This document shows, piece after piece, positions 1,485 to 58,375 of a DNA stretch of 64,000 nucleotides. The stretch is from the NCBI GenBank assembly GCA_951799405.1, contig OX637344.1, forward strand, positions 4,278,001 through 4,342,000. Reading direction: 5' to 3'. The position numbers and the translations under genes were made by a program. The stretch comes from Agapetus fuscipes. Its lineage: Eukaryota; Arthropoda; Insecta; Trichoptera; Glossosomatidae. The notes beneath the pieces were generated by a model. That model ran no database searches and was not told where the DNA came from. It was given only the letters and a program-made list of their open reading frames with translations. Every line of letters starts with the position of its first letter. Position 1 is the stretch's first letter.

Positions 1485-1723
1485 AAACGCAACTAAGCTA
1501 CACATAAAGTGTAACTTTTTGCCTGCCTTTTTGCGATTCGGGACCTATTTTTTTACGGGTAAGGGGGCTGGCCTCACACCAACCACTTTCAGTTGAAGTG
1601 GGGGTTTCCCAGCTCCCAGGGGAGCTGGTTTTTATTTCTTGTGAAGGCTGAGTAAAGCTTGAGATCGAACCCTTGCTCTCGGCATGGAAAGGAAGCATTC
1701 TACCAATTGAGCTATCGACCTTT
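1485..1723 (-). repeat. SINE-A copy, internally deleted
   Basis: Minus-strand order is a tRNA-like head (TCGATAGCTCAATTGGTAGA, then GGTTCGA B-box-like), then ACTCAGCCTTCAC, the AGCTCC/GGGAGCT hairpin, the CCACTTCAACTGAAAGTGG arm, and the TGTGTAGCTTAGTTGCG end. The block between head and body (TGATTTCCCGTTTCGG to CCGGTAT) seen at 46998 is missing. It abuts a SINE-B copy at 1724. Confidence 0.85.
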
Positions 1724-1954
1724 TTACGAGCTTGATCGTCGTCACTACAAAACGCCAATTCTCAAGCAAGACCCAGTTGCTGTAAGGCTGGATAGACCTT
1801 TGATGACCGGTCATTGGTAAAGGTTTATAAAATTTTCAACCCAGCGAAGAGCAAATTTGAAAATATAAATGGTATTTTTTTTGTGCTCCGCCGGGATTCG
1901 AACCCATAGCCTTCCACTCAGAGTCCGAATTGTTACCACTACTGCGGACCGGTC
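1724..1954 (-). repeat. SINE-B copy, tRNA-like part and body only
   Basis: Minus strand: GACCGGTCCGCAGTAGTGG A-box-like region, GGGTTCGAATCCC B box, CGGCGGAGCA, then the body to GACGATCAAGCTCG. The 5S-like head and both known tails are absent; the 3' end joins SINE-A directly. Confidence 0.85.
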
Positions 1955-2585: not shown

Positions 2586-3442
2586 CACATAACTAAAGAG
2601 CGCCGTTTTTGTGTGTGTCACACCTCAAGGGCCCTCTCAAATCACGGATAAGATTTCTTGTAAAGATGTGTCTTTAGTGCTCCTTTAAAGACACCAACAG
2701 TCTTTGCCTTCCTCACATTAGGTGGCAGTCTGTTCCACTCCATTGGTCCCGCAAACCGGAAAGCACGGTCCCCAAAATTAGTGCGTGTCTGACGGTGTGG
2801 CTGAACCAAGTCCACCACGCCATCCCCTGCAGATCTGAGCGTTTGGCGCCTCAAATCCCTCTCAACGGGTGTAAACATGTCAGCCAAATATGAAGGAGCT
2901 GTACCATTTACAGCCTTATACACCATCAGACAAACACGGTAGACCACCCTCTCCGGAAAACGAAGCCAATGCAGTTTCCCTAACAATGGAGTAATGCGAG
3001 TAAATTTAGACATCCCGAATATGAGTCTTGCCGCTGAATTCAGCACAGACTGAAGACGGTTGAACTGCTTTTTCGGCTGACCTATGTACAGCGTTGAGCA
3101 ATAGTCAACTCGTGACATCACAAAGGCATTCACCAGGGTCCTGACTGCTCCCGACGGTAAACATCTCCTGATCGCCTTTATCTGGCGAAGTTCAAAAAAT
3201 GAGGAAGATACAGTCGAGTTCAATTGCTCTCCCATTGTGAGGTTCCGATCCAGTGTGACTCCTAGAAGTCTGACTGAGTCGGAGGGCTGAATCAGCTCTC
3301 CCCCAATAGAGAGTGGTACTCGACTTGTCAAAAGATGATCACGCCTGGTTGTAGCCGCCCACATCACTTCTGTCTTACCCATGTTAAGGATTAGGCCATT
3401 GCTTGTCATCCATTCACCAATCTCCGCAATGCAAGCTGCCAC
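2586..3442 (-). CDS. L2-like LINE: C-terminal reverse transcriptase fragment
   Basis: An intact 266-codon frame (2642-3442) for the part of a non-LTR retrotransposon polyprotein downstream of the catalytic box. Near the N-terminus is WM.SNGLILNMGKTEVMW, which in LINE reverse transcriptases follows the YADD motif; YADD itself is missing. Then come RVDYCSTLY.GQP...LNRLQSVLNSAARLI (about 110-142), ITPLLGKLHWLRFPERV (about 148-165), and FGDRAFRFAGPMEWNRLPPNVR (about 224-245). The apparent start is a GTG inside the truncated frame, so it is not a real start. After the stop the 3' UTR reads GAGAGGGCCCTTGAGGTGTG and AACGGCGCTC. The related copy at 5719 ends the same way. It is a 5'-truncated copy that cannot move on its own. 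Confidence 0.85.
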
Positions 3443-3454
3443 CCTGTTACAAAT

Positions 3455-3508
3455 GTATCTTTGGTATGATTAAAGATGGTTAGCCACATACCAACCTATA
3501 AGTTAAGA
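3455..3508 (-). repeat. family R fragment, 5' end only
   Basis: Minus strand TTAACTTATAGGTTGGTATG plus a few more bases, then homology stops. Confidence 0.55.
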
Positions 3509-5315: not shown

Positions 5316-5718
5316 GGAAGAACAAGGAATGTCAGTTGAAGAACATTTTGAGTAAAACAAAAATATAAATTTGAAAGTCTGTATTTCTCATTGTTATTGC
5401 CTATCACAAAAAACCGCAAATACCGCCATATACTGTGGTTGCAAGTTGCAACTGTTGTTGCATTAGAAATTTTGCAAAGCTTTAGATACACACAGATGCC
5501 GCTAGAGCACATTTATAGTTGATTATTTTCTTATTTTTGCTGACGTTCCTTGCTTTTGCCCTGTTGTTTCAACTGAGCTTTCGACCGGAATTTAATCTTA
5601 TCTAATTTATGTTGCGAAGATATGTAACATTGGGGATTCACATTATATGTATACCGCCCACATATCTGAGGGAGTCCCCGACAGAAGCAGGATTCAGAAG
5701 AAGCCTCAAGACATCCCT
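5316..5718. other. unassigned stretch
   Basis: AT-rich DNA up to the L2-like copy. Two short minus frames are not recognisable. Confidence 0.5.
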
Positions 5719-6235
5719 GTGTGCTGAACTCTGCAGCAAGACTCATATTCGGGATGTCTAAATTTAACCATATAACTCCATTGTTGAAAAAACTGCATTG
5801 GCTTCGTTTTCCGGAGAGGGTGGTCTACCGTGTTTGTCTGATGGTTTACAAAGCTGTCAATGGTATGGCTCCTTCATACTTGTCTGACATGTTCTCACGT
5901 GTTGAGATAGATTTGAGACGCCAAACTCTCAGATCTGCGGAGTGTGGGGTGTTTGACTTAGTCCAGCCGTCACGTCAGACACGCACTAATTTTGGGGACC
6001 GTGCTTTCCGGTTTGTGGGCCCAATGGAGTGGAACAGACTACCACCTAATGTGAGGAAGGCAGAAACTGTTGGTGTCTTTAAAGGAGCACTAAAGACGCA
6101 TCTTTACAAAAAAAAATATCCGTGATTTGAGAGGGCCCTTGAGGTGTGACACACACAAAAACGGCGCTCTTTTATTATGTGTACCTTATAAATAAATTAT
6201 CCTTGTATTTATATATATATATCCCTATTTCAAGG
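5719..6235 (+). CDS. L2-like LINE: C-terminal fragment (5721-6125)
   Basis: A 134-codon frame closely matching the C-terminal half of the 2586-3442 element. It starts at LNSAARLIFGMSKF, then ITPLLKKLHWLRFPERVVY, FGDRAFRFVGPMEWNRLPPNVR, and the terminal FKGALKTHLYKKKYP. The stop is followed by GAGGTGTGACACACACAAAA, CGGCGCTC and ATAAATTATCC, then a (TA)n tract. The 5' end is truncated inside the coding region, the usual result of aborted target-primed reverse transcription. It shares no start codon or catalytic residues and is a remnant. Confidence 0.85.
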
Positions 6236-10517: not shown

Positions 10518-10954
10518 GTCAACGACGTTAGCCATGTTGAAAGCACCGGTTCCCATAGATCACCGAAGTTAAGCAACATTGGGCGCGGACAGTACTTGGA
10601 TGGGTTACCGCTCAGGTAGGTACACCGCGTGTCGTTGGCATCTTGGACCGGTCCGTAGTCCGTAGTGGCAACACTTCGGACTCGTAAACGGAAGGTTGTG
10701 GATTCGGATCCCGGCGCGGAGCAGAAAATATACCATTTATATTTCGAATGTGCTCTTCGCTGAGTTGAAAAATTCATACACCTTTACCAAAGACCGATCA
10801 CTGAAAGGTCCATCCAACCTTACAACAACTGGGTCTTGCTTGAGAATTGGCGCTTTCTACAGCGACGACCAAGCTCGCAGAGGGCTCTTGAGGTGTGATA
10901 CACACAAAAACAGCGCTCACCAAATAAATCACCCTAATATTATTATTATTATTA
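10518..10954 (+). mobile_element. SINE-B, full length: 5S head + tRNA-like segment + L2-like tail
   Basis: Positions 10518-10640 resemble 5S rRNA, including GATCACCGAAGTTAAGCAAC (A-box region), GGGCGCGG, GATGGGTTACCGCTC (C-box region) and ACACCGCGTGTCGTTGGC. From 10645 comes a tRNA-like segment: GGTCCGTAGTCCGTAGTGG, ACACTTCGGACTCGTAAACG and a B-box-like GGATTCGGATCCC, then CGGCGCGGAGCA. A body of about 130 bp follows. The tail AGAGGGCTCTTGAGGTGTGA, ACACACAAAAACAGCGCTC and AATAAATCACCCT matches the L2-like 3' UTRs at 2586 and 5719, and ends in (ATT)n. It is transcribed, if at all, by RNA polymerase III and moved by an L2-like LINE (inference). Confidence 0.88.
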
Positions 10955-13034: not shown

Positions 13035-13598
13035 CCCCGTGTAGTCAGATAAAAAATGCTTATAGTATAAATAACGGCAGTCCATCTTATTCAAAGGTTT
13101 CAGTAAGCTTGCGGAGTATCCAATAATTTATTTGTTGTAAATCTTTTTTAGTTTGTCAACTATATTTTTAGTGATTCAACTATTGCGCCGTATTACTAGC
13201 ACTGTCAGGACGGCCTGCAAGTTTGCAAAGCGAGATGACGTCACCAGGACGGATCCAGAACGGGCTTTTGTCCCGCAAATTAATTAAACAACCCTGCAAA
13301 CGAACTAACCCCTTAAATTGAATTCCGAGCGACATATTGTAAACAAGGTAATTACGTAAGGAAGCCACCACACGACATTACTGGCTCCATAAGAGTTATG
13401 ACATCCACAATACATCAACAAGAAAATTTCATGTTTACACTCAAAAATGTGTGACAACTAAAACACTCACTAGAGACACTGCTTTAGTTTCAAAGCATTT
13501 TTCTGGTAAACGCGATTGCTGAGTTTTAACACTTGGGATATTGAAAACAATATCGCTTACTATTGCAGGTTATGTCGGGTTGACATGCAAACAGATAT
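13035..13598. other. unassigned stretch
   Basis: 13190-13290 is somewhat GC-rich (includes GATGACGTCACC) with a 63-codon frame of no known similarity. Confidence 0.5.
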
Positions 13599-14545
13599 GT
13601 GTCGCACGATTCAGGTCAAATTATTCTAAAGCAAATGGTTGTATCTTCTACTTCTGGTTACTCCTCGTGGAATGGGGATAATGCAACAAGTACAGTCACG
13701 AAACAACAAAAAAACCAGAACAGTCTAATAACATCCATTTCACATCGTCTGATGCTCAACCCCAACAAAACGGAGATTATGTGGTTAACCACGGCCATAA
13801 GAGCGTACCTAATGGATCATTCTCCAGTAGGCGGATCTATGCCGCTAACATTGTCTAGAGTCCATCTAGACAGCTCCCTTTGCCTGGACAAACAAATTAG
13901 CAGTACTGTCAGCTCTTGCTTTTATGGTCTCAGGCAGCTGAAACGAGCAAGAAACTGCCTACCACCTGATGCCATGAAAGCTCTGGTAAATGCCTTCGTC
14001 ATCTCTAAGGTAGACTACTGCAACGGAATCTATGCTGCACAACCAAAATGCCAGCTAAACAGACTGCAGTCTGTAATGAACGCCAGTGCCCGCCTGATTT
14101 ATGGTCAGAGCAAGTACTGCCATATTACCCCACTCCTGCAGAAGCTTCACTGGTTGAGGATCCCAGAAAGGATCAAATTCAAGCTGGGCCTCACGGTACA
14201 CAAAGCGCTGCATGGAGTGGCGCCAGAGTACTTGCAGGAGCTGATATTACCGAGGAGTCTGAGCGAGAGGGGGCTCACTCTGAGATCTGCCGACAGTGCT
14301 CTTACATCTGTCAGCACACTATGCCGAAAAACAAGCACAGTGTTCGGAAACCGCGCTTTTGCCGTTGCGGGACCGTCCACTTGGAACCAGCTGCCTCCTG
14401 AAGTGCGCGCCTAGGAAGGGATCGAGAGCTTCAAGAAGGGAATGAAGACCCATTTCTTCACCGCCGCGTCAAGCCTGAAAGCGCCCTTGCAGTGACAGTT
14501 GTCACGAAACGGCGCTATAAAAATCATCATCATCATCATCACCAT
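13599..14545 (+). CDS. L2-like LINE: C-terminal reverse transcriptase fragment with premature stop
   Basis: A 271-codon frame (13599-14414), opened by a GTG that is not a true start. The first 45 or so residues are unrelated flank. LINE homology begins near HRLMLNPNKTEIMWLTT (after the lost YADD box). It continues through ALVNAFVISKVDYCNGIY, NRLQSVMNASARLIYG, ITPLLQKLHWLRIPER, and FGNRAFAVAGPSTWNQLPPEVRA. A TAG at 14412 interrupts it; the same frame goes on with GMKTHFFTAASSLKAPLQ to about 14492. The sister fragment at 62507-62842 reads through the equivalent position. The tail has AAACGGCGCTATAAAAATC and (ATC)n. It differs in sequence from the 2586 family. Confidence 0.85.
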
Positions 14546-20085: not shown

Positions 20086-20605
20086 GAATGGATGATGAAA
20101 GACTGACCATTTGTATATACAGAGAAAATTTTAAAGGAAAAAGAGGGAGAGGAAGACCGAGAAAAGTAAGGCTTGATCAGATTGGGGAAATTAAATGAAA
20201 GGGGAGTTACTCTGAGGTCAGCTGGGTCATGCACAGTCTTCGGGAACCACTCTTTTCGTGTTGCCGGGCCGGTGGCATGGAATGCTCTCCCAGAGAGGCT
20301 GAGAGTCCAGGAAGATGAGACAGCCTTCAGGAAGATGCTCAAAGCATTCTTGTTTTCCCGCTAGAGCCCACATGCGCCTTAGTAGTGATGTAAATCACAA
20401 AAAGGCGCATATAAATCTAGTTATCTATAACTATTATTATTATTATTAAATTGTTAAAGAATGGGATAAGCAGAGTGAATATAAAAGAAGGGCGTGTATG
20501 AAAAAGGTGATGGATATGAAGGAATTGAAAAAGGAATAGCAAAATTGGGAAAAAATTGAGCCAACTCTGCGGAAGCCGCCCCTAGTGAAATGGTGACTTT
20601 TTTTT
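20086..20605 (+). pseudogene. LINE-B remnant split by an L2-like insertion
   Basis: Left part (to about 20192) encodes the RLT.CIYRENFKGKRGRGRPRKV region. The right part (from about 20448) resumes with TGTTAAAGAATGGGATAAGC and continues to CCCCTAGTGAAATGGTGAC. Joined conceptually they match 58100-58330 in order, so the copy was complete here before the 20193-20447 insertion. Frames are broken. Its 3' tail is cut by the poly(T) of the next element. Confidence 0.8.
20189..20447 (+). mobile_element. L2-like LINE 3' fragment nested in LINE-B
   Basis: Frame 20173-20364 reads RGVTLRSAGSCTVFGNHSFR then VAGPVAWNALPERLR and FRKMLKAFLFSR, the C-terminal signature of L2/CR1 elements. The tail AAAAAGGCGCATATAAATC ends in (ATT)n. 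AAATT occurs on both sides (20188-20192 and 20448-20452) as a possible target duplication. Confidence 0.8.
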
Positions 20606-21290
20606 TTTTTTTTTTTTTTTTTTAAGGAATCCTGTGCGGGAGGCTCCCCAATTCTTGTGAGTCTTGGGGGTCTATGTCACCCTGGAAGGGTGCCGCAGAG
20701 GTGTTGCTTGAGTTCTTGGTTCTGTCGTGAGGCGCTGCAAGGAAGTGGTGATTGATGTTGGTTTGAATAAAACCGGATTAAATTGGGAAGGGAACACAGA
20801 TACTGGTAGACCATTCCATAAACGGGCAGTTTGGCAAAGGAATGAGTCATGAAAACGCCAAGTTCTCATAGTTTTGAGATCGACTGCAAAGGGATGAATG
20901 AGAGTCGTACTACGAGTTTCCCTTTCTGAAATGCGAGGGGGAGGGATTAATGAATGGAGCTCATTAGAACAAGCTCCGTGATAATATCGATAAAAAAGAC
21001 TGAGCATTCCAACTTTTCTTCTGTGCTGGAGCGGCTGCAGATCGGATGTCAGAGAAGGATCATTGATCAACCTCACTGCCCTCCTTTGCACAGAATCAAG
21101 TTGGTCACTCAACTTCTTGGACATACCACACCAGAGATGGCTGCCATATTCGATAATGGGGCGGATTTGGGATTTATACAGAGTCAATAACTGGGCTGAA
21201 GTAAAAACTGGACTGAGTAAAGGTTACAGACTCTTATTAACAAGACTCCTAGATTTCCGTGTTTGGTTATATGAGACCCATTTATTAAAG
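20598..21290 (-). CDS. Jockey/CR1-like LINE: C-terminal reverse transcriptase fragment (20672-21187)
   Basis: A 171-codon minus frame starting MTLYKSQIRPIIEYGSHLW, then LDSVQRRAVRLINDPSL, LSLFYRYYHGACSNELHSLI, FLCQTARLWNGLPVSVFPS and a short polar end. This is the region after the reverse transcriptase core in Jockey and related insect LINEs; YADD is absent. The 3' UTR reads CACCTCTGCGGCACCCTTCC, ATAGACCCCCAAGACTC and CTCCCGCACAGGATTCCTT, then a 26-base poly(A). That tail recurs on SINE-B copies at 23711 and 40753. The fragment is 5'-truncated near 21290. Confidence 0.85.
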
Positions 21291-21527
21291 ATCGTCAGTA
21301 ATATTAATTTATTATGAATATCACAGAATTTTTTTTCTAAAAATAATTGTGTAATGAAATACTGCAAATATTTGAGCTTTCGAGAGAGGAATACTTTTAA
21401 TTTAATTTATTTCAGTACAAAATTCATTACTTTCCGTTTGTTTGTATTTGTTCATCTTTTTAAAAAAATCCTGAGAATATAAAAAAAAAAAAAAAACCTA
21501 GAATACGTACTTGTTTTGACTTTGAGA
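21291..21527. other. unassigned AT-rich
   Basis: Only A/T runs seen. Confidence 0.5.
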
Positions 21528-21665
21528 CGCAAACATTCAAAACCGGCAATCTAGGAGTTTTATTTATAAGGTAAATACACGGACACACTTTCTGTGTTTC
21601 TATACATTAATTTCATTTTAGGAAAACAGCCTAGATTGCCGTTTTTGATTCTTTATGACCCGTTG
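21528..21665. mobile_element. small inverted-repeat element
   Basis: CAAAACCGGCAATCTAGG is mirrored by CCTAGATTGCCGTTTTTG about 90 bp on. A third CTAGATTGCCGGGTTTGG occurs near 22112-22130. Confidence 0.5.
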
Positions 21666-22487
21666 AAAAGTGCAAACTCTACTAATAGAGCTTTCTATAG
21701 AAACTATAATATGTAAATAATCGTAAAAAAATATTTTCGTCTAATTCCATAAATAGATCATACAGAATCAATATAAAGTTTTATAATACCTCGTTACGAA
21801 ATTTTAATATCAAGTTCTTCTATCAATATAAAGTGGAATGAATTTCTTGCACAATATTGCATTTATTGGCCTCTATTGACTGCTCGCTCCTGGCACAAGG
21901 AAATTACAGCTCCTATTCGATTCGCGGTAACTTCGATCAAATTAAATTCATTGAATTCTAGACAGTTCGAAGACGGAATACTATAAATATCATAATAGTG
22001 CAAACCAAAGTCGGCAATGTAAGAATTTTTCCGAAAATTAAATAAATATACAGAAACAGAGGAAAATTTATTCTCATCATTTTTGCACAGATATCTGATT
22101 TTTTTAAAAGTGCTAGATTGCCGGGTTTGGTTCTATATGATGCACGCGAAACGGAACTTCTGGTCAATTTAATATTCTAGAGACGAGGCGTCAGAAACTG
22201 AGAGAGACAGATGTACAGACTCCGCGATAGACAGAGATAGAATATATTACGGGATAGAAAGAGAGAGATGCATCTGATAAAGTGACGTATGCAGAAATAG
22301 AGTTTTACCTCAATGTACGAATTTTATTCGCTTTTAATAAATCTGCTCGTATAATCTAAGTAACAGAAATAAATTAACAAGCATAGTCCATCATTCATGG
22401 ACATCGACAGCAGAATCGTGCAATTTTATTTTAGATTTAAATAGATCTTTGACATTTCTTTTCTTTTAAATCGTTGTACAAGTAAAT
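21666..22487. other. unassigned stretch
   Basis: AT-rich with a GAGAGA-rich patch near 22190-22270. No frame recognised. Confidence 0.5.
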
Positions 22488-22970
22488 CTATAATCTAAGT
22501 TGCAAAGATGTATTACATTTAAGATTCATATTACATGTATTCGTACTATTCACGTTTACACATGCCGCATATGGGCTAACAACATTAAAACCCAATCTCA
22601 AATGAACATAACCTGCAACTCTTGCCGACTTCCCCTGAAATATTGGCAAAGTAAACCATGTTTTTTCAGTAATGGTGGTCAGCATGATCTAAGCTGTATA
22701 AGATAAAACGTATAAGTTCGCGCTTACACGTGCCGCATGTAGACTTAACCCAATCTTAAATGATCATATTATATGCATTCTCAGAAGCACACACATATAA
22801 GTGCGCGCTTGCACATGCTGCATGTGAACCTACAACATTAAAACCTAAACTTCAAATGCTCATACACGCTGCAACATTCGCCGACTTTCCCCGAAACAGG
22901 TAACATTGGAAAAGTGAACCATTTTTTAAAGCATTGTGTGGTCAGCCTCATACCAACCTATAAGTCAAAA
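22488..22970 (-). repeat. two family R copies in the same orientation
   Basis: The first (22488-22690) runs from CTAAGTTGCAAAGATGTATT to the GTGGTCAGC block. The second (22700-22970) has a repeated GTATAAGTTCGCGCTTACAC block, then ends CCTATAAGTCAAAAG. Confidence 0.82.
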
Positions 22971-23091
22971 GATCAAATATAATAACATCAAGTCAATCCA
23001 AATCTGTAATTCTGATCTATTTTCTGAAAAAAAATGTTGTTCGTAGACTGGACAGGGAGTAACTCACTTTTGCAGGTTGATTATTATTTTC

Positions 23092-23340
23092 CTTGACTTA
23101 TAGATTGGTATGAGGCTGACCACCCATACTGTAAAAAATAGTTCACTTTGCCAATGTCACCCCTGTTTCAGGGAATGTCGGCAGGAGTTGCAGGGCTTAT
23201 GTTCATTTGAGTTTGGATTTTATTTGTAAGTACACAATCAGCATTTGTAAGCGCGAACTACACGTGTTTGTTTGTGGGCATACATCTGAGAGCTTTAAAT
23301 GAATATATCCTTGCAACTTAGATTATAGATTATAGATTAT
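23092..23340 (+). repeat. family R copy, young subfamily
   Basis: TTCCTTGACTTATAGATTGG to a (ATAGATT)n tail. GATTATTA lies on both sides, a possible target duplication partly merged with the tail. Confidence 0.88.
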
Positions 23341-23710
23341 TACAAGAAGAGGTGGAGGCAGTAGTTATAGGAGGTTAAGGATTAAAGAAGTTTGGCTGCA
23401 GTATCATTAAAGATAAAGAAGAATTGAGAAAATAATATTTTTGTCGTAAAGCGAATCGCTCCAACACACGTAATTCGAGTTTCAAAAACCGTATAAAAAC
23501 GAATACCGAGTTACACGACTGTTCTGAAGTTGTGCATATACTATGTGGGTTAGTAGTTAAGTGTGTGTTAGGGTATTTCCAAGTGCACTTGCAGCATTTG
23601 AATGCAAAGCCTTCACGAGGCCGCATGCATAATATCATTATTATTACCCACAGTCTACGTGCTCGTGCATTTAGTTATAATATGGAGGTGTAGAAACTAA
23701 CTAACAATTC
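23341..23710. other. unassigned stretch
   Basis: No gene. The GGTGTAGAAACTAACTAAC at 23686-23705 resembles GGGGTAGAAACTAACATACG near 59836, so SINE-B may have inserted into an older repeat. Confidence 0.45.
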
Positions 23711-24153
23711 GTCAACGACGTTAGCCATGTTAAAAGCACCGGTTCCCATAGATCACCGAAGTTAAGCAACATGGGGCGCGGTCAGTGCTTGGATGGGTAA
23801 CCGCTCAGGTACACCGCGTATCGTTGGCATCTTGGACCGGTCCGTAGTCCGTAGTGGCAACACTTCGGACTCGTAAATGGAAGGTTGTGGATTCGGATCC
23901 CGGCGGAGCACAAAAATATACCATTTATATTTCGAATGTGCTCTTCGCTGGGTTGAAAAATTCATACACCTTTACCAATGACCGGTCACCAAAGGTCCAT
24001 CCAGCCTTACAGCAACTGGGTCTTGCTTGAGTATAGGCGCTTTGTAGCGACGACCAAGCTCGTACACCTCTGCGGCACTACAACAACATAGACCCCTAGA
24101 GTCTTTAGAATCTAGGGAGTCTCCCGCACAGGATTTCTTAAAAAGAAAAAAAA
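23711..24153 (+). mobile_element. SINE-B, full length, Jockey-like tail
   Basis: A 5S-like head (GTTAAGCAACATGGGGCGCG) is followed by the tRNA-like segment (GTAGTCCGTAGTGGCAACAC, GGATTCGGATCCC) and the body. After CCAAGCTCG the tail is TACACCTCTGCGGCACTAC, ATAGACCCCTAGAGTC and CTCCCGCACAGGATTTCTTA with an A-rich end. This matches the Jockey-like 3' UTR at 20623-20720, not the L2-like tail of the 10518 copy. Confidence 0.88.
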
Positions 24154-24237
24154 TGTTCTATAGGGCGCAGTTGTCCTTAATCCTGTCAAACACAGCAGTG
24201 GTGTAGTCATACAAAACATGTCCAACAAAAAAAAATA
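24154..24237. repeat. short repeat shared with about 59870-59920
   Basis: GCGCAGTTGTCCTTAATCCT and CAAACACAGCA resemble GCACAGTTGTCCCCAGTCCT and CAAAAACAACA at 59 kb. Confidence 0.5.
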
Positions 24238-24525
24238 GGTTGATTTATTTGGTGAGCGCTGTTTTTGTGTGTATCACACCTCAAGAGCCCTCTGCGAGCT
24301 TGGTCGTCACTGTAAAAAGCGCCAATTCTCAAGCAAGACCCAGTTGTTGTAAGGCTGGATGGGCATTTTGATGAGCGGTCTTTGGTAAAGGTTTATGAAT
24401 TTTTCAACCTAGCGATGAGCAAATTTGAAAATATAAATGGTATATTTTTTGTGCTCTGCCGGGATTCAAACCCACAACCTTCCATTTACGAGTCCGAAGT
24501 GTTACCACTGGACTACGGACTGCTC
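24238..24525 (-). mobile_element. SINE-B copy without 5S head, L2-like tail
   Basis: Minus strand starts at the tRNA-like segment (CCGTAGTCCAGTGGTAACAC, GGGTTTGAATCCC) and ends AGAGGGCTCTTGAGGTGTGA. It lacks the 5S part. Confidence 0.85.
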
Positions 24526-34503: not shown

Positions 34504-34812
34504 CTACTGTAACTGTAACTCTGTCGCCATTCCGCTAGGGGTGCCTCTGCAGAGTTGCCTCCATTTTTTCCTATCCTTACATACCTCTTTCAATTCATTC
34601 ATATCCATCACCTTTTTCATGCATTTTCTTCTTTTACGCTCACTTTGTATATCCCATTCTTTCACAATCTCCTCAATCTGATCACTCCATACTTTTCTCG
34701 GTCGTCCCTTCCCTCTTTTTCCTTTCACACTTTCTTTGTATACATACTTTGTCAGTCTATCATCATTCATTCTTTCCACATGCCCAAACCATCTCATCAC
34801 ATTATTTTGTAC
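34504..34812 (-). pseudogene. LINE-B 3' end, open frame of 98 codons
   Basis: Minus frame starts MMRWFGHVERMNDDRLTKYV, then KGKRGKGRPRKVW, KEWDIQSERKRRKCMKKVMD and DRKKWRQLCRG. A small deletion in GGCTCTGGCCACC shifts the last codons. The frame opens at a truncation, so it is a remnant of the reverse transcriptase protein C-terminus. Confidence 0.85.
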
Positions 34813-34857
34813 CTTACCTTTTGAACCTACTGATATTTATATTGCGTCAGAAGAATA

Positions 34858-38447: not shown

Positions 38448-38878
38448 GTAACTGTAACTCTGTCGCCATTCCGCTAAGGGTGGCCAGAGCCTCTGCAGAG
38501 CTGCCTCCATTTTTTCCTATCCTTACATCCCTCTTTCAATTCATTCATATCCATCACCTTTTTCATGCATTTTCTTCTTTTACGCTCACTTTGTATATCC
38601 CATTCTTCCACAATCTCCTCAATCTGATCACTCCATACTTTTCTCGGTCGTCCCTTCCCTCTTTTTCCTTTCACACTTTCTTTGTATACATACTTTGTCA
38701 GTCTATCATCATTCATTCTTTCCACATGGCCAAACCATCTCATCACATGCTTTTGTACCTTAACTTTCACATCCTCTTTCAAATTACATTATTTTTTTAC
38801 CCATTCATTCCTAACTCTATCCCTCAGAGTTTTTCCTGTCGTGCTTCTCAAATGCTTCATTTCCACCGTACATACTTT
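38448..38878 (-). pseudogene. LINE-B 3' half, frames 38474-38782 and upstream
   Basis: The minus frame of 102 codons gives VKVQKHVMRWFGHVERMND to DRKKWRQLCRGSGHP, almost identical to the 57775 copy. Further upstream codons for KVCTVEMKHLRS and LRDRVRNEWV are visible at 38800-38878 but separated by a frame break near ATTATTTTTTTACCC. The (ACAGTT)n tail is short. Reverse transcriptase core absent. Confidence 0.87.
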
Positions 38879-39439: not shown

Positions 39440-39672
39440 GACCGGTCTGTTGTCTAGTACTTGACACTTCTTCTTTCTCGTAAATGGAAGGTTGTGGGTT
39501 CAAATCCCGGCGGAGCATAACAAATATACCATTGATATTTTCAAATACGCTCTTCGCTGGGTGAAAAATTCATATTCCTTTACCAAAGACCGGTCACTAA
39601 AGGTCCATCCAGCCTTATGACAATTGAATCAGCGCTCACCAAATAAATCATCCTTATAGTATTATTATTATT
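39440..39672 (+). mobile_element. SINE-B copy without 5S head, internally deleted
   Basis: CTCGTAAATGGAAGGTTGTG, GGGTTCAAATCCC and the body, then a jump from TCCAGCCTTATGACAATTG to AATCAGCGCTCACCAAATAA with (ATT)n. Confidence 0.82.
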
Positions 39673-39712
39673 GACAGAACCACACATTATTGAACGACAC
39701 ATGAAATAAATG

Positions 39713-40077
39713 CCACAGAGGTGTACGAGCTTGGTCGTCGCTACAAAGCGCCAATACTCAAGCAAGACCCAGTTGCTGTAAGGCTGGATGGACCTTTGGT
39801 GACCGGTCATTGGTAAAGGTTTATGAATTTTTCAACCCAGCGAAGAGCACATTCGAAATATAAATGGTATAGTTTTGTGCTCCGCCGGGATCCGAATCCA
39901 CAACCTTCCATTCAAGAGTCCGAAGTGTTGCCACTACGGACTACGGACCGGTCCAAGATGCCAACGACACGCAGTGTACCTGAGCGGTTACCCATCCAAG
40001 CACTGACCACGCCCAATGTTGCTTAACTTCGGTGATCTATGGGAACCGGTGCTTTCAACATGGCTAACGTCGTTGAC
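39713..40077 (-). mobile_element. SINE-B, full 5S and tRNA-like parts, truncated Jockey-like tail
   Basis: Minus strand starts GTCAACGACGTTAGCCATGT, has GTTAAGCAACATTGGGCG, then GGTCCGTAGTCC and GGATTCGGATCCC. It ends CGTACACCTCTGTGGCA, the first bases of the Jockey-like tail. Confidence 0.86.
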
Positions 40078-40614: not shown

Positions 40615-40740
40615 TAAAATCAGTTCATCCTCAGTCATCGTGCAGAGAGGGTGTCTTCTGAAGACGTTAACTACGACGCTAACTTTTGTTAGCGTCGTAG
40701 TTAACGTCGAGAATAATGTAAGTTCTCTTATAACGGTTTT
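40615..40740 (+). mobile_element. Penelope-like fragment related to 36190-36330
   Basis: CAGTTCATCCTCAGTCATCG, CTGAAGACGTTAACTACGAC, and AATAATGTAAGTTCTC. A short GTCGTAGTTAACGTC hairpin partly replaces the core. Confidence 0.55.
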
Positions 40741-40752
40741 TTCAGAAATAAT

Positions 40753-41054
40753 GTGAGGGAGACTCCATAGATTTCACAGATTCCAGGGGTCTATGGCACT
40801 TGTTGTAGTGCCGCAGAAGTATTTACGAGCTAAGTCGTCGCTTCAAATAGCCAATACTCAAGCAAGACCAAGTTGCTGTAAGGCTGGATGGACCTTTTAG
40901 TGACCGGTCTTTGGTAAAGGTTTATGAATTTTTCAACCCAGCAAAGAGCAAATTTGAATATATAAATGGTATATTTTTGGTGCTCCACCGGGATTCGAAC
41001 CCACAACCTTCCATTTACGAGTCCGAAGTGTTACCACTGGACTACGGACCGGTC
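40753..41054 (-). mobile_element. SINE-B copy without 5S head, Jockey-like tail
   Basis: Minus strand: CCGTAGTCCAGTGGTAACAC, GGGTTCGAATCCC and the body, then TACTTCTGCGGCACTACAAC and ATAGACCCCTGGAATC, TGGAGTCTCCCTCAC. Confidence 0.85.
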
Positions 41055-41529
41055 GAAAACGGCTCATCTATTATCCGTTTATTTTTTTACGGTGTAGTTA
41101 TTATTATTGCAAATATTTCAAACGACCGTCACTCCAAAATAAACTTAACAAATATGAATTTGTCCAATATCGAAATTTAGCAGGTCATATTTATTCACAG
41201 CGCTCCCTCTACGATATTTTCTGTTAGGGGTGGGTCCGTCCGTTTGTACCAACACCGAGCCACCCCAGTTTGACAATTTTCCCAGAGACAGGGTTTTCCT
41301 TTGAAAATTGTTTTTACAGCATTACCTTCGACTCTCTGATGTACAGTATATTATACTGTTCACGTGCATTGTGGACTCGCCTAACAATGTCATGCTACAA
41401 AGAAAACACGAGTGATTTCATGCGAAAGGTAAATTACAATTTAACCCAAATATATTCTTGGGTTTTTATTATTTTTTTATTGTCTTTTTACTTTGTTGTT
41501 CGTTGTATATTAATATTTTATCTCTGTAA
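41055..41529. other. unassigned stretch
   Basis: Frame 41270-41665 is AT-driven and hydrophobic because of the adjoining tandem repeat; no recognisable protein. Confidence 0.5.
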
Positions 41530-47805: not shown

Positions 47806-48237
47806 TAATAATAATAATAATATTAGGATGATTTATTTGGTGAGCGCTGTTTTTGTGTGTATCACACCTCAAGAGCCCTCTGCGAGCTTGGTCGTCGCTG
47901 TAGAAAGCGCCAATTCTCAAGCAAGACCCAGTTGTTGTAAGGTTGGATGGACCTTTCAGTGACCGGTCTTTGGTAAAGGTTTATGAATTTTTCAACTCAG
48001 CGAAGAACACATTCGAAATATAAATGGTATATTTTTGTGCTCCGCCGGGATCCGAATCCACAACCTTCCATTTACGAGTCCGAAGTGTTGCCACTACGGA
48101 CTACGGACCGGTCCAAGATGCCAACGACACGCGGTGTACCTGAGAGGTCACCCATCCAAGTAATGTCCGCGCCCAATGTTGCTTAACTCCGGTGACCTAT
48201 GGGAACCGGTGCTTTCAACATGGCTAACGTCGTTGAC
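47806..48237 (-). mobile_element. SINE-B, full length, L2-like tail
   Basis: Minus strand: GTCAACGACGTTAGCCATGT, GAGTTAAGCAACATTGGGCG, ACACCGCGTGTCGTTGGCAT, GGATTCGGATCCC, the body, AGAGGGCTCTTGAGGTGTGA and (ATT)n. Same arrangement as 10518-10954. Confidence 0.9.
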
Positions 48238-57697: not shown

Positions 57698-57779
57698 AAT
57701 AAAATACGTAGAATAGGATGTAGTACGTATGTAGTATGTAGTAAAATACGTAGAATAGGACGTAGTAGAATAGGATGTG
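57698..57779 (+). repeat. GTAGAATAGGATGTAGTA tandem repeat
   Basis: Alternating GTAGTATGTAGTAAAATAC and GTAGAATAGGATGTAGTA-like units just before the LINE-B frame. Confidence 0.65.
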
Positions 57780-58375
57780 TAAGGGCAAGCAAGTGGTCGG
57801 TGCAATAGGAAGAATAGCAAAGAACAAGCGATTGACGATGGATCTGAGAATGGCGGTACACAATGGCATATTGTTACCGACTTTGATGTATGGAAGTGAA
57901 GCATGGACAGTGAATGATAGCGAAATGAGTAAAGTATGTACGGTGGAAATGAAGCATTTGAGAAGCATGACAGGAAAAACTCTGAGGGATAGAGTTAGGA
58001 ATGAATGGGTAAAAAAAGAATGTAATTTGAAAGAGGATGTGAAGGTTAAGGTACAAAAGAATGTGATGAGATGGTTTGGGCATGTGGAAAGAATGAACGA
58101 TGATAGACTGACAAAGTATGTATACAAAGAAAGTGTGAAAGGAAAAAGAGGGAAGGGACGACCGAGAAAAGTATGGAGTGATCAGATTGAGGAGATTGTG
58201 AAAGAATGGGATATACAAAGTGAGCGTAAAAGAAGAAAATGCATGAAAATGGTGATGGATATGAATGAATTGAAAGAGGTATGTAAGGATAGGAAAAAAT
58301 GGAGGCAACTCTGCAGAGGCTCTGGCCACCCCTAGCGGAATGGCGACAGAGTTACAGTTACAGTTACAGTAAAAC
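57775..58375 (+). CDS. LINE-B: C-terminal part of reverse transcriptase protein (57775-58335)
   Basis: The best-preserved LINE frame of this type, 186 codons and uninterrupted. Residues about 31-45 are GILLPTLMYGSEAWT; about 56-75 TVEMKHLRSMTGKTLRDRVR; about 99-107 RWFGHVERM; about 118-134 the KESVKGKRGKGRPRKVW basic stretch. It ends DRKKWRQLCRGSGHP. In the insect LINEs I know with this signature, the segment lies downstream of the reverse transcriptase core and YADD box, absent here. The apparent ATG is a chance codon beyond a tandem repeat. The 3' end is GGCCACCCCTAGCGGAATGG, CGACAGAG and (TTACAG)n. Clade not assigned. Seven or more shorter copies lie in the window. Confidence 0.88.

Follow-up and report, generated by a model that had tools for sequence, protein, structure and literature searches.

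The window, a stretch of 64,000 nucleotides from the genome of Agapetus fuscipes, carries copies of one family of short interspersed elements (SINEs) together with the LINEs that match their 3' ends (Table 1). With the copy at 23711 as query, blastn against the window detected the body at 40077-39711 (97.0% identity), 48237-47883 (93.5%), 10518-10877 (92.5%), 41057-40738 (87.3%) and 24520-24295 (88.2%), as well as older pieces. As the earlier note proposed, this is one SINE family with the 3' ends of two different LINEs: the body is joined after CCAAGCTCG to either tail, and both LINE partners are represented in the window, as pieces. Two of its tail assignments need qualification. The copy that it placed at 24238 has the L2-like tail but no clear (ATT)n end, and the one at 39713 is Jockey-tailed but retains just 15 nt of that tail.

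Table 1. SINE copies, LINE pieces and the CCAAGCTCG motif in the window.
Feature	Position	Strand	Details
SINE copy	1490..1954	-	body fused at CTCGTAAAA to a second, tRNA-headed SINE
L2-like LINE	2598..3469	-	275-aa open frame 2642-3469; SINE-matching 3' UTR 2598-2637
L2-like LINE	5670..6169	+	151-aa open frame 5670-6125; SINE-matching 3' UTR 6130-6169
SINE copy	10518..10954 (end approximate)	+	5S head, tRNA-like part, body, L2-like tail with (ATT)n (Rfam, blastn)
CCAAGCTCG in 10518 copy	10869-10877	+	
Jockey-like LINE, 5'-truncated	20598..21223	-	183-aa frame 20672-21223; poly(A); tail homology 20610-20704
SINE copy	23711..24153	+	locus L005; 5S head, tRNA-like part, body, Jockey-like tail, A-rich end
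CCAAGCTCG in 23711 copy	24054-24062	+	
SINE copy without 5S	24228..24520 (ends approximate)	-	tRNA-like head, body, L2-like tail
Older tRNA-headed copy	39440..39672	+	internal deletion into L2-like tail
SINE copy	39711..40077	-	5S head, tRNA-like part, body, initial 15 nt of Jockey-like tail
SINE copy without 5S	40738..41057	-	tRNA-like head, body, Jockey-like tail (older tJ1 type)
SINE copy	47806..48237 (tail end approximate)	-	5S head, tRNA-like part, body, L2-like tail with (ATT)n

The earlier description of the SINE left out the 5S rRNA head. Rfam detects this head (RF00001, 68-74 bits) on four window copies, those at 10518, 23711, 40077 and 48237, and at the loci L033 (81.9 bits) and L006 (76.6 bits). 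The copies at 24520 and 41057 have a tRNA-like head alone, and RF00001 has no match in the tRNA-headed loci L072 and L058. The 5S-derived head is confined to the 5S-bearing subfamilies, which we take to belong to the SINE3 class (5S rRNA-derived SINEs); both tail types are found with and without it. We refer to the 5S-L2 subfamily as 5SL, to the young and older 5S-Jockey subfamilies as 5SJ and 5SJ0, and to the tRNA-headed Jockey SINE as tJ2. In the tJ2 consensus, TAGCTCAGTGG and GGTTCGAATCC match what are presumably the box A and box B motifs of a tRNA-derived SINE (SINE2 class). ARAGORN predicted no tRNA genes across 18 loci.

The 3' ends of the SINE are LINE-derived. The Jockey-like tail of the 23711 copy aligns with 20704-20610 of the Jockey-like LINE (78% over 96 nt, E 7.5e-15) and with 40820-40738 at 82%. 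The LINE piece at 20598 thus matches the SINE tail, but an older copy at L020:5077-5164 is a closer relative (91-92% versus 79-80%). The L2-like tail of the 10518 copy aligns with 47899-47802 (98%), 24311-24228 (94%) and the LINE 3' ends 2637-2598 and 6130-6169 (92.5% over 40 nt each). This homology starts one base past CTCG and four bases past the stop codon of the 275-aa frame. The earlier note had placed L2-like 3' UTRs at 2586 and 5719; the second match lies at 6130-6169, not at 5719 itself.

The names Jockey-like and L2-like are labels from the initial sequence reading, not from a phylogeny with named references. For the Jockey-like LINE, the 150 matches scored, out of 10002 candidates, mostly share 97-98% identity with the query across its residues 6-156; four of the 150 carry 1106-aa frames. 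The frame at L073 contains Exo_endo_phos (2.2e-13) and RVT_1 (1.3e-29) domains and is accompanied by poly(A); the combination of endonuclease, reverse transcriptase and poly(A) fits a Jockey-like LINE and is not specific to the Jockey clade. Five fetched copies show no difference over the final 208 nt compared. The two partners, earlier called unrelated, belong to different lineages, but their proteins are still 25% identical over 268 aa. The Jockey-like frame has 27 protein relatives, and those named are all from Callosobruchus chinensis (42-54% identity). The L2-like frame has 253; among the 120 listed, the species-named one is from Lates calcarifer (40%), and many carry RVT_1 (PF00078). Another endonuclease-RT-like frame has 21 protein relatives, none of them with a species name, and Pfam found no families in five truncated frames.

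The copy at 23711 belongs to 5SJ, and this subfamily is a recombinant, not the product of a tail swap at CTCG. Diagnostic sites were defined as the 26 columns that differ between the 5SL and tJ2 consensus sequences. All 14 similarity-ranked 5SJ copies, the 23711 copy included and the window copy at 40077 with its cut tail left out, match 5SL at the first 15 sites and tJ2 at the last 11. To the left of the crossover 5SJ is identical to 5SL at 104/105 positions and to tJ2 at 90/106; to the right, in the body before CTCG, the values are 115/127 and 123/124. The crossover maps 83-124 nt upstream of the CTCG end. Of the 5358 Jockey junctions, 100 were listed and 60 of these sampled in order of position. 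Judged by the left-half sites only, 27 of the 60 are 5SJ; every one of the 11 right sites is tJ2-type in 24 of these copies, and the other three deviate by a single base each.

Phylogenetic analysis of the two halves, with two short fused copies (L024 and L025) left out, gives the same picture. The left-half tree contains an exclusive 5SL+5SJ clade with support 98, and supports in the right-half trees are low (13-53). The AU test rejects a 5SL+5SJ clade for the right half (p 0.0091) and 5SJ+tJ2 for the left half (p 0.0176), so one common history for the two halves is rejected. In the tree of 5S heads, 23 of 24 5SJ copies group within a paraphyletic 5SL with modest supports of 72-75; the remaining copy, L118, lies outside the group. 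A GT insertion is present in all 14 5SJ copies and absent from 8 of 16 5SL copies. This pattern, together with the nesting of 5SJ in 5SL, gives the direction of change as 5SL to 5SJ.

These data are best accommodated by a SINE family built of modules, with reassortment of head, body and 3' end, and with 5SJ arising by template switching during reverse transcription, a reading to which we assign a probability of roughly 0.75. A tRNA-headed SINE would have gained the 3' ends of two LINEs at a single CTCG boundary, where fusions with another SINE also took place. One such SINE would then have acquired, on a single occasion, a 5S rRNA head, and the box B of its tRNA part would have decayed afterwards. 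The 5S head would next have come to lie on the Jockey-tailed 5SJ0, the L2-tailed 5SL and again a Jockey-tailed form, 5SJ, with 5SJ0 and 5SL in either order. The last step is the recombination shown above, with the left part from 5SL, the right part from tJ2 and one crossover in the common body.

The main alternative places the origin of 5SJ at the DNA level, where genomic copies would have recombined or undergone gene conversion. Body copies are dense, 33 in 264 kb, and a single homologous crossover is compatible with either route. Nothing decisive stands against it: a mosaic in which one parent supplies the 5' part and the second parent the 3' part is expected of reverse transcription and equally of a DNA crossover. 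We consider this origin unlikely, though it is the most serious competitor. Under template switching, the enzyme of the Jockey-like LINE would begin at the Jockey tail of tJ2 RNA, copy the tail and the right half of the body, and then shift within the homologous body onto 5SL RNA, of which it would copy the 5S promoter. An element made in this way could draw on the second LINE, with 5SL presumably still relying on the first.

Another proposal, made in the earlier note, is a single tail switch at a fixed point just after CCAAGCTCG, with everything upstream being the same SINE. The tails do start there, and three kinds of 3' module begin at or near its CTCG end, the third being the second tRNA-headed SINE of the fused copy. 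The joins at CTCG are observed as structure; acquisition of the tails by a tRNA-headed SINE is the probable way in which they formed. The crossover of the young 5SJ, however, lies well upstream of this point; 5SJ and 5SL differ at 12 of 127 columns on the right and 1 of 105 on the left, and there are two distinct 5S-Jockey classes. Nor are the bodies quite identical up to CCAAGCTCG, as had been claimed: in position-ordered samples, tail-linked bases occur 17-30 nt before the CTCG end, and in the 5S subfamilies also farther upstream. The six body sites nearest the junction are all Jockey-type in 56 of the 60 Jockey junctions, with deviations at 1-2 sites in the other four, and the final five sites are L2-type in 9 of 12 L2 junctions, with a single odd base in three. 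The tail and the neighbouring body stretch therefore travel together. A fixed-point switch is improbable as a full account, and may describe the first divergence of the older tL and tJ1 forms.

The existence of two 5S-Jockey classes could also mean that 5S heads were gained twice independently, once per tail lineage. Yet 5SL and 5SJ have one common 5S/tRNA joint, which recurs slightly altered in the old-class copies L085, L098 and L132. Both box B changes are present in 30/30 5SL and 5SJ copies and in 0/32 copies without 5S; box B is likewise changed in L085, L088, L123, L126 and L132. A double capture is thus highly improbable and was dropped. The common joint and the altered box B fit the single capture proposed above, in which decay of box B would probably have come second.

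The idea that the Jockey-like tail was inserted afterwards, on its own, beside the SINE has practically no chance of being correct; we found no support for it, and 5358 identical 25-mer junctions, in whole units with different flanks and ~1-2% divergence, contradict it. Exact genome-wide searches with junction 25-mers returned 9443 L2-like and 5358 Jockey-like occurrences and none for the reversed controls, which excludes chance. Because both junctions exist in thousands of genomic copies, neither tail is a separate insertion, and the loci with the same junction in differing flanks indicate that the tail moves together with the body. The refuting condition set in the earlier note, a Jockey-like tail inserted later by itself, is thereby not borne out. 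The signature of retroposition is incomplete, since long target-site duplications are lacking: at 48 loci, one match of at least 7 nt was found, within a CAT repeat. Flank matching at 33 Jockey-typed loci averages 2.24, compared with 1.54 for shuffled pairs (reached by 3/300), and at 15 L2-typed loci, one of which (L070) is truly Jockey-tailed, 3.27 compared with 2.63 (13/300). Duplications of a few bases remain compatible with these values. A SINE 18-mer had no match in viral_contigs; its matches in four bacterial contigs of genome_contigs extend over only 18-24 nt and were attributed to chance.

How often did the SINE change its partner? The second Jockey class, 5SJ0, comprises four copies that split from the rest on the head tree with support 99. 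By parsimony, it implies at least two tail changes in the 5S lineage, in place of the single change of LINE partner suggested earlier. The class counts are those of a rule that misassigned some rows: L130, old 5S-Jockey by rule, reads tJ2-like, and of those that the rule left unclear, L099 reads old 5S-Jockey and L106 and L135 young 5S-Jockey. Divergence is about equal, 0.018, in 5SL (n=5, position-ordered) and 5SJ (n=27); the position-ordered samples come from contig C1 alone and, by requiring an exact 25-mer, are weighted towards young copies, and the low divergence of those sets that were similarity-ranked is biased. Replacement of the L2-tailed by the Jockey-tailed form was dropped, given the similar divergence. 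Instead, the young 5SL and 5SJ look contemporaneous, apparently with two LINE partners at once. This suggests that a SINE may gain a second helper without giving up its first. More broadly, and with somewhat less than even confidence, one SINE lineage may exchange 3' halves with its sister SINEs again and again (Jockey, L2, Jockey) through a homologous body zone. Its promoter would then evolve independently of the module that partner LINEs recognise, two LINE clades would be used at once, and the Jockey tail would be a copied piece of LINE coding sequence acting as an RNA hairpin.

The gain of a new LINE helper by a SINE is, as a rule, deduced by comparing distant relatives. In this single genome, young Jockey-like LINEs occur alongside the recombinant and both of its parents, all little diverged, and each junction is present in thousands of copies; the exchange can therefore be timed, counted and assayed. 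Among the closest known cases, as far as the available parts of the report describe it, is Plutella xylostella PxSE4/PxSE5 (PMC8010984), two 5S rRNA-derived SINEs of one genome with a common 5' end of ~250 bp and different 3' ends, one tail matching a LINE; tail exchange is discussed there. By that description, the LINE of the other tail was not found, breakpoint and parents were not mapped, and a tRNA-like second head is not described. Helicoverpa armigera HaSE1/HaSE3 (PMC3272025) have a 5S head on a tRNA SINE body and a LINE tail, for which template switching was invoked. In the portions of that account available to us a single RTE tail is common to both, whereas in the Agapetus SINE the 5S head precedes the tRNA-like part and the tails differ. 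New hagfish families are reported to arise by inter-SINE recombination and replacement of the 3' part (Kojima 2020, PMC7245038); relative to what is accessible of that work, the Agapetus SINE offers both parents and the recombinant at low divergence, with the crossover within ~40 nt. The CORE-, V- and Deu-SINE superfamilies carry different LINE tails and are tabulated by host (PMC3747384); in the parts at hand their shared parts span mostly different hosts, unlike the Agapetus SINE, whose recombining family resides in a single genome. Different 3' tails on a common 5' half are also mentioned for SINEs in PMC2653535, as cited there, and the available part of a butterfly SINE report (PMC6685494) contains no case of one body with two tails. 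Judged against these partial sources, shared 5' parts with varied 3' ends (Plutella) and recombined SINEs (hagfish) are known, and the Agapetus case is unusually clear. The exact SINE family was not found in the literature searched, which is weak evidence.

The Jockey tail suggests that a protein-coding LINE end may double as a signal copied by its parasites. Pairs changed on both sides number 4 of 18 in its hairpin, a count reached by 28/500 shuffles, compared with five in a control with the partner slid one column; the number of further pair types was reached by 500/500 shuffles. The ten tails are related to each other, which makes this control weak either way. The hairpin is kept in both LINE and SINE, with 92.8% of cells paired versus 89.0% in shuffled tails, a value that 0/500 shuffles reach.

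The SINE family claimed by the earlier note is present and repeated in the window. We found 33 copies of its body in 264 kb of the 618-Mb genome (148 contigs), a sample made up of the window (C12:4278001-4342000; 14 copies) and 20 random 10-kb stretches from known parts of 21 large contigs (19 copies). The longest form, about 430-450 nt, consists of a 5S rRNA head, identified by its match to Rfam RF00001, a tRNA-like part, a body running to CCAAGCTCG, and a 3' module. Heads with or without the 5S part are joined to L2-like or Jockey-like tails, the latter with an A-rich end, in all four combinations among the window copies. Read by eye, the 19 bodies from random stretches divide into 10 with an L2-type tail, 4 joined to another SINE and 5 that end before the junction; none carries a Jockey tail.

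Positions of SINE copies and additional LINE-like frames
Feature	Location	Strand
5S head, L2 tail	window 10518 and 48237	
5S head, Jockey tail	window 23711 and 40077	
No 5S, L2 tail	window 24520	
No 5S, Jockey tail	window 41057	
Other SINE fused behind body at CTCGTAAAA	window 1490-1954	-
Other SINE fused behind body at CTCGTAAAA	L018:9401-9956	-
Other SINE fused behind body at CTCGTAAAA	L024:2391-2723	+
LINE frame, 276 aa	window 13584-14414	+
Endonuclease/reverse-transcriptase-like frame, repeated end	window 57769-58335	+
Endonuclease/reverse-transcriptase-like frame, repeated end	window 34504-34836	-
Endonuclease/reverse-transcriptase-like frame, repeated end	window 38474-38788	-

Six sets of copies were compared. 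The 5S-headed, L2-tailed set (5SL, 16 copies) contains 14 of the 39 matches listed outside the window copy and the two window copies; the young 5S-headed, Jockey-tailed set (5SJ) contains 14 of 40 listed matches, including window 23711. The tRNA-headed, Jockey-tailed sets tJ1 (16) and tJ2 (5) come from 20 of the Jockey-tailed copies listed and window 41057, and the tRNA-headed sets tL (L2-tailed, 6) and tA (fused to the other SINE, 5) were chosen among copies in the window and the random stretches. All 30 copies of 5SL and 5SJ show both changes in box B (GGATTCGGATCC against GGTTCGAATCC); none of the other 32 copies does.

Up to CTCG, the end of the body, 26 diagnostic columns separate the consensus sequences of 5SL and tJ2. 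In all 14 5SJ copies, the first 15 of these are 5SL-type and the last 11 tJ2-type. Column 242 is variable among 5SL copies (3 of 16), so the crossover can safely be placed in columns 229-270, 83-124 nt upstream of the CTCG end. Trees of the two halves of the body (60 rows each) conflict in the way expected of a recombinant: 5SL and 5SJ form an exclusive clade on the left half (support 98) and no such clade on the right half, where supports are low (13-53). Forcing one history on both halves is rejected by AU tests (p = 0.0091 and 0.0176). The 5SJ form may have arisen by template switching or by DNA recombination, the data being compatible with both.

In a 44-copy tree built on the 5S head plus left half, the older 5S-Jockey class, 5SJ0 (4 copies), is set apart with a support of 99. 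Of the 24 5SJ copies, 23 group together (75) and then join one 5SL copy (72) within a paraphyletic 5SL; the remaining copy, L118, lies outside. A GT insertion is carried by 14 of 14 5SJ copies and missing from 8 of 16 5SL copies. With tails arranged on this tree as Jockey, (L2, Jockey), at least two tail changes within the 5S lineage are required. Two 5S-Jockey copies, L091 and L118, have 5SL-like bases in head or body and may represent further exchanges.

Exact junction 25-mers occur 5358 times in the genome for the Jockey tail and 9443 times for the L2 tail, and reversed controls 0 times. For a sample free of similarity ranking, we took sites from the top of each 100-site listing, 60 for Jockey and 12 for L2, all on contig C1. 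By rule, the Jockey junctions fall into 27 young 5SJ, 13 tJ2, 7 5SJ0, 3 tJ1-like and 10 unclear, with four calls differing on reading by eye. The 27 5SJ were called from the left half only; across the 11 right sites, 24 of them are tJ2-type throughout and the other 3 each deviate by a single base. The L2 copies, read by eye, are 5 5SL, 1 intermediate (L144) and 6 tL or older. Copies diverge from their class consensus by 0.018 on average in 5SJ (n=27), 0.033 in tJ2 (n=13) and 0.041 in 5SJ0 (n=7, of which one is miscalled). Measured against the 5SL consensus built from the similarity-ranked copies, the five sampled 5SL diverge by 0.008-0.024 (mean 0.018), and with such similar divergence 5SL and 5SJ look contemporaneous.

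This kind of phenomenon, shared SINE parts with exchanged tails, is already known, since passages in the literature describe comparable cases: Plutella PxSE4 and PxSE5, with a common 5S-bearing 5' part, different 3' ends and a discussion of tail exchange (PMC8010984); a tRNA-SINE body with a 5S head in Helicoverpa (PMC3272025); hagfish SINEs whose origin is put down to recombination and 3' replacement (PMC7245038); template switching and shared 5' halves with different tails (PMC2653535); and a review table of superfamilies whose LINE tails and hosts differ (PMC3747384). Our literature search found no case in which both parents and the recombinant are present and the crossover is mapped, and no single SINE lineage that carries tails from two LINE clades at the same time.

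The proteins of the L2-like and Jockey-like partner LINEs are 25% identical over 268 aa. In the window, two LINE pieces have 3' UTRs that are 92.5% identical to the L2 tail over 40 nt, the homology starting one base past CTCG. The Jockey tail is 79-80% identical to a young LINE family and 91-92% to an older copy, L020. In L073 (L073:655-3972), a young Jockey-like LINE that looks intact, a single 1106-aa frame runs from stop to stop and encodes both an endonuclease and a reverse transcriptase domain. The frame closes with a stop codon that runs into the start of the poly(A), leaving practically no 3' UTR; thus, the Jockey tail of the SINE corresponds to the last LINE codons and is coding rather than untranslated sequence. 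This LINE is abundant: 150 of 10002 candidate matches were scored, most 97-98% identical (residues 6-156), and four of these have the 1106-aa frame. At the 3' end, five fetched copies show no difference over 208 nt. A hairpin fold is common to ten LINE and SINE tails: 92.8% of cells are paired, compared with 89.0% in shuffles (reached by 0 of 500), and both sides are changed in 4 of 18 pairs (reached by 28 of 500). Further pair types show no excess, as 500 of 500 shuffles reach the observed number, so the pairing tests lend the hairpin moderate support. Among the additional frames in the window, the 276-aa one is 36-51% identical to relatives of the L2-like LINE protein, and the plus-strand copy of the endonuclease/reverse-transcriptase-like frame is 98% identical to a public protein, P0149, over 68% of the frame.

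The body is followed by a third 3' module in window 1954, L018 and L024, and probably in L025 and L027: a further tRNA-headed SINE, itself abundant, joined after CTCGTAAAA or close to it. This very abundant second SINE makes a third use of the CTCGTAAAA boundary; a segment of about 60 nt found in many of its free copies is missing from the fused ones.

The textbook picture of retroposition is incomplete for these insertions. Apart from one in a CAT repeat, no target-site duplication reaches 7 nt. For both tails the flanks match slightly better on average than shuffled pairs do, which leaves room for duplications of a few bases. Matches that bridge the two flanks were obtained for 12 of 48 loci, and only those for L011 (97.8%) and L008 (91.8%) are readable as empty sites; both elements were inserted without duplication, with an extra T at the 5' end of L011. 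A T run directly precedes the 5S start in L011 and is missing from the matching empty repeat site (98% identity); the same is seen, less surely, in L038 and L039 (83% and 74%). Two young 5S-Jockey copies on different contigs, L009 (C12) and L048 (C26), have an identical 30-base 5' flank and different 3' flanks. In the 5' flank of L006 the element's first bases are repeated, with ACGTTAGCCATGTT ahead of GTCAACGACGTTAGCC, resembling a 5' end copied twice.
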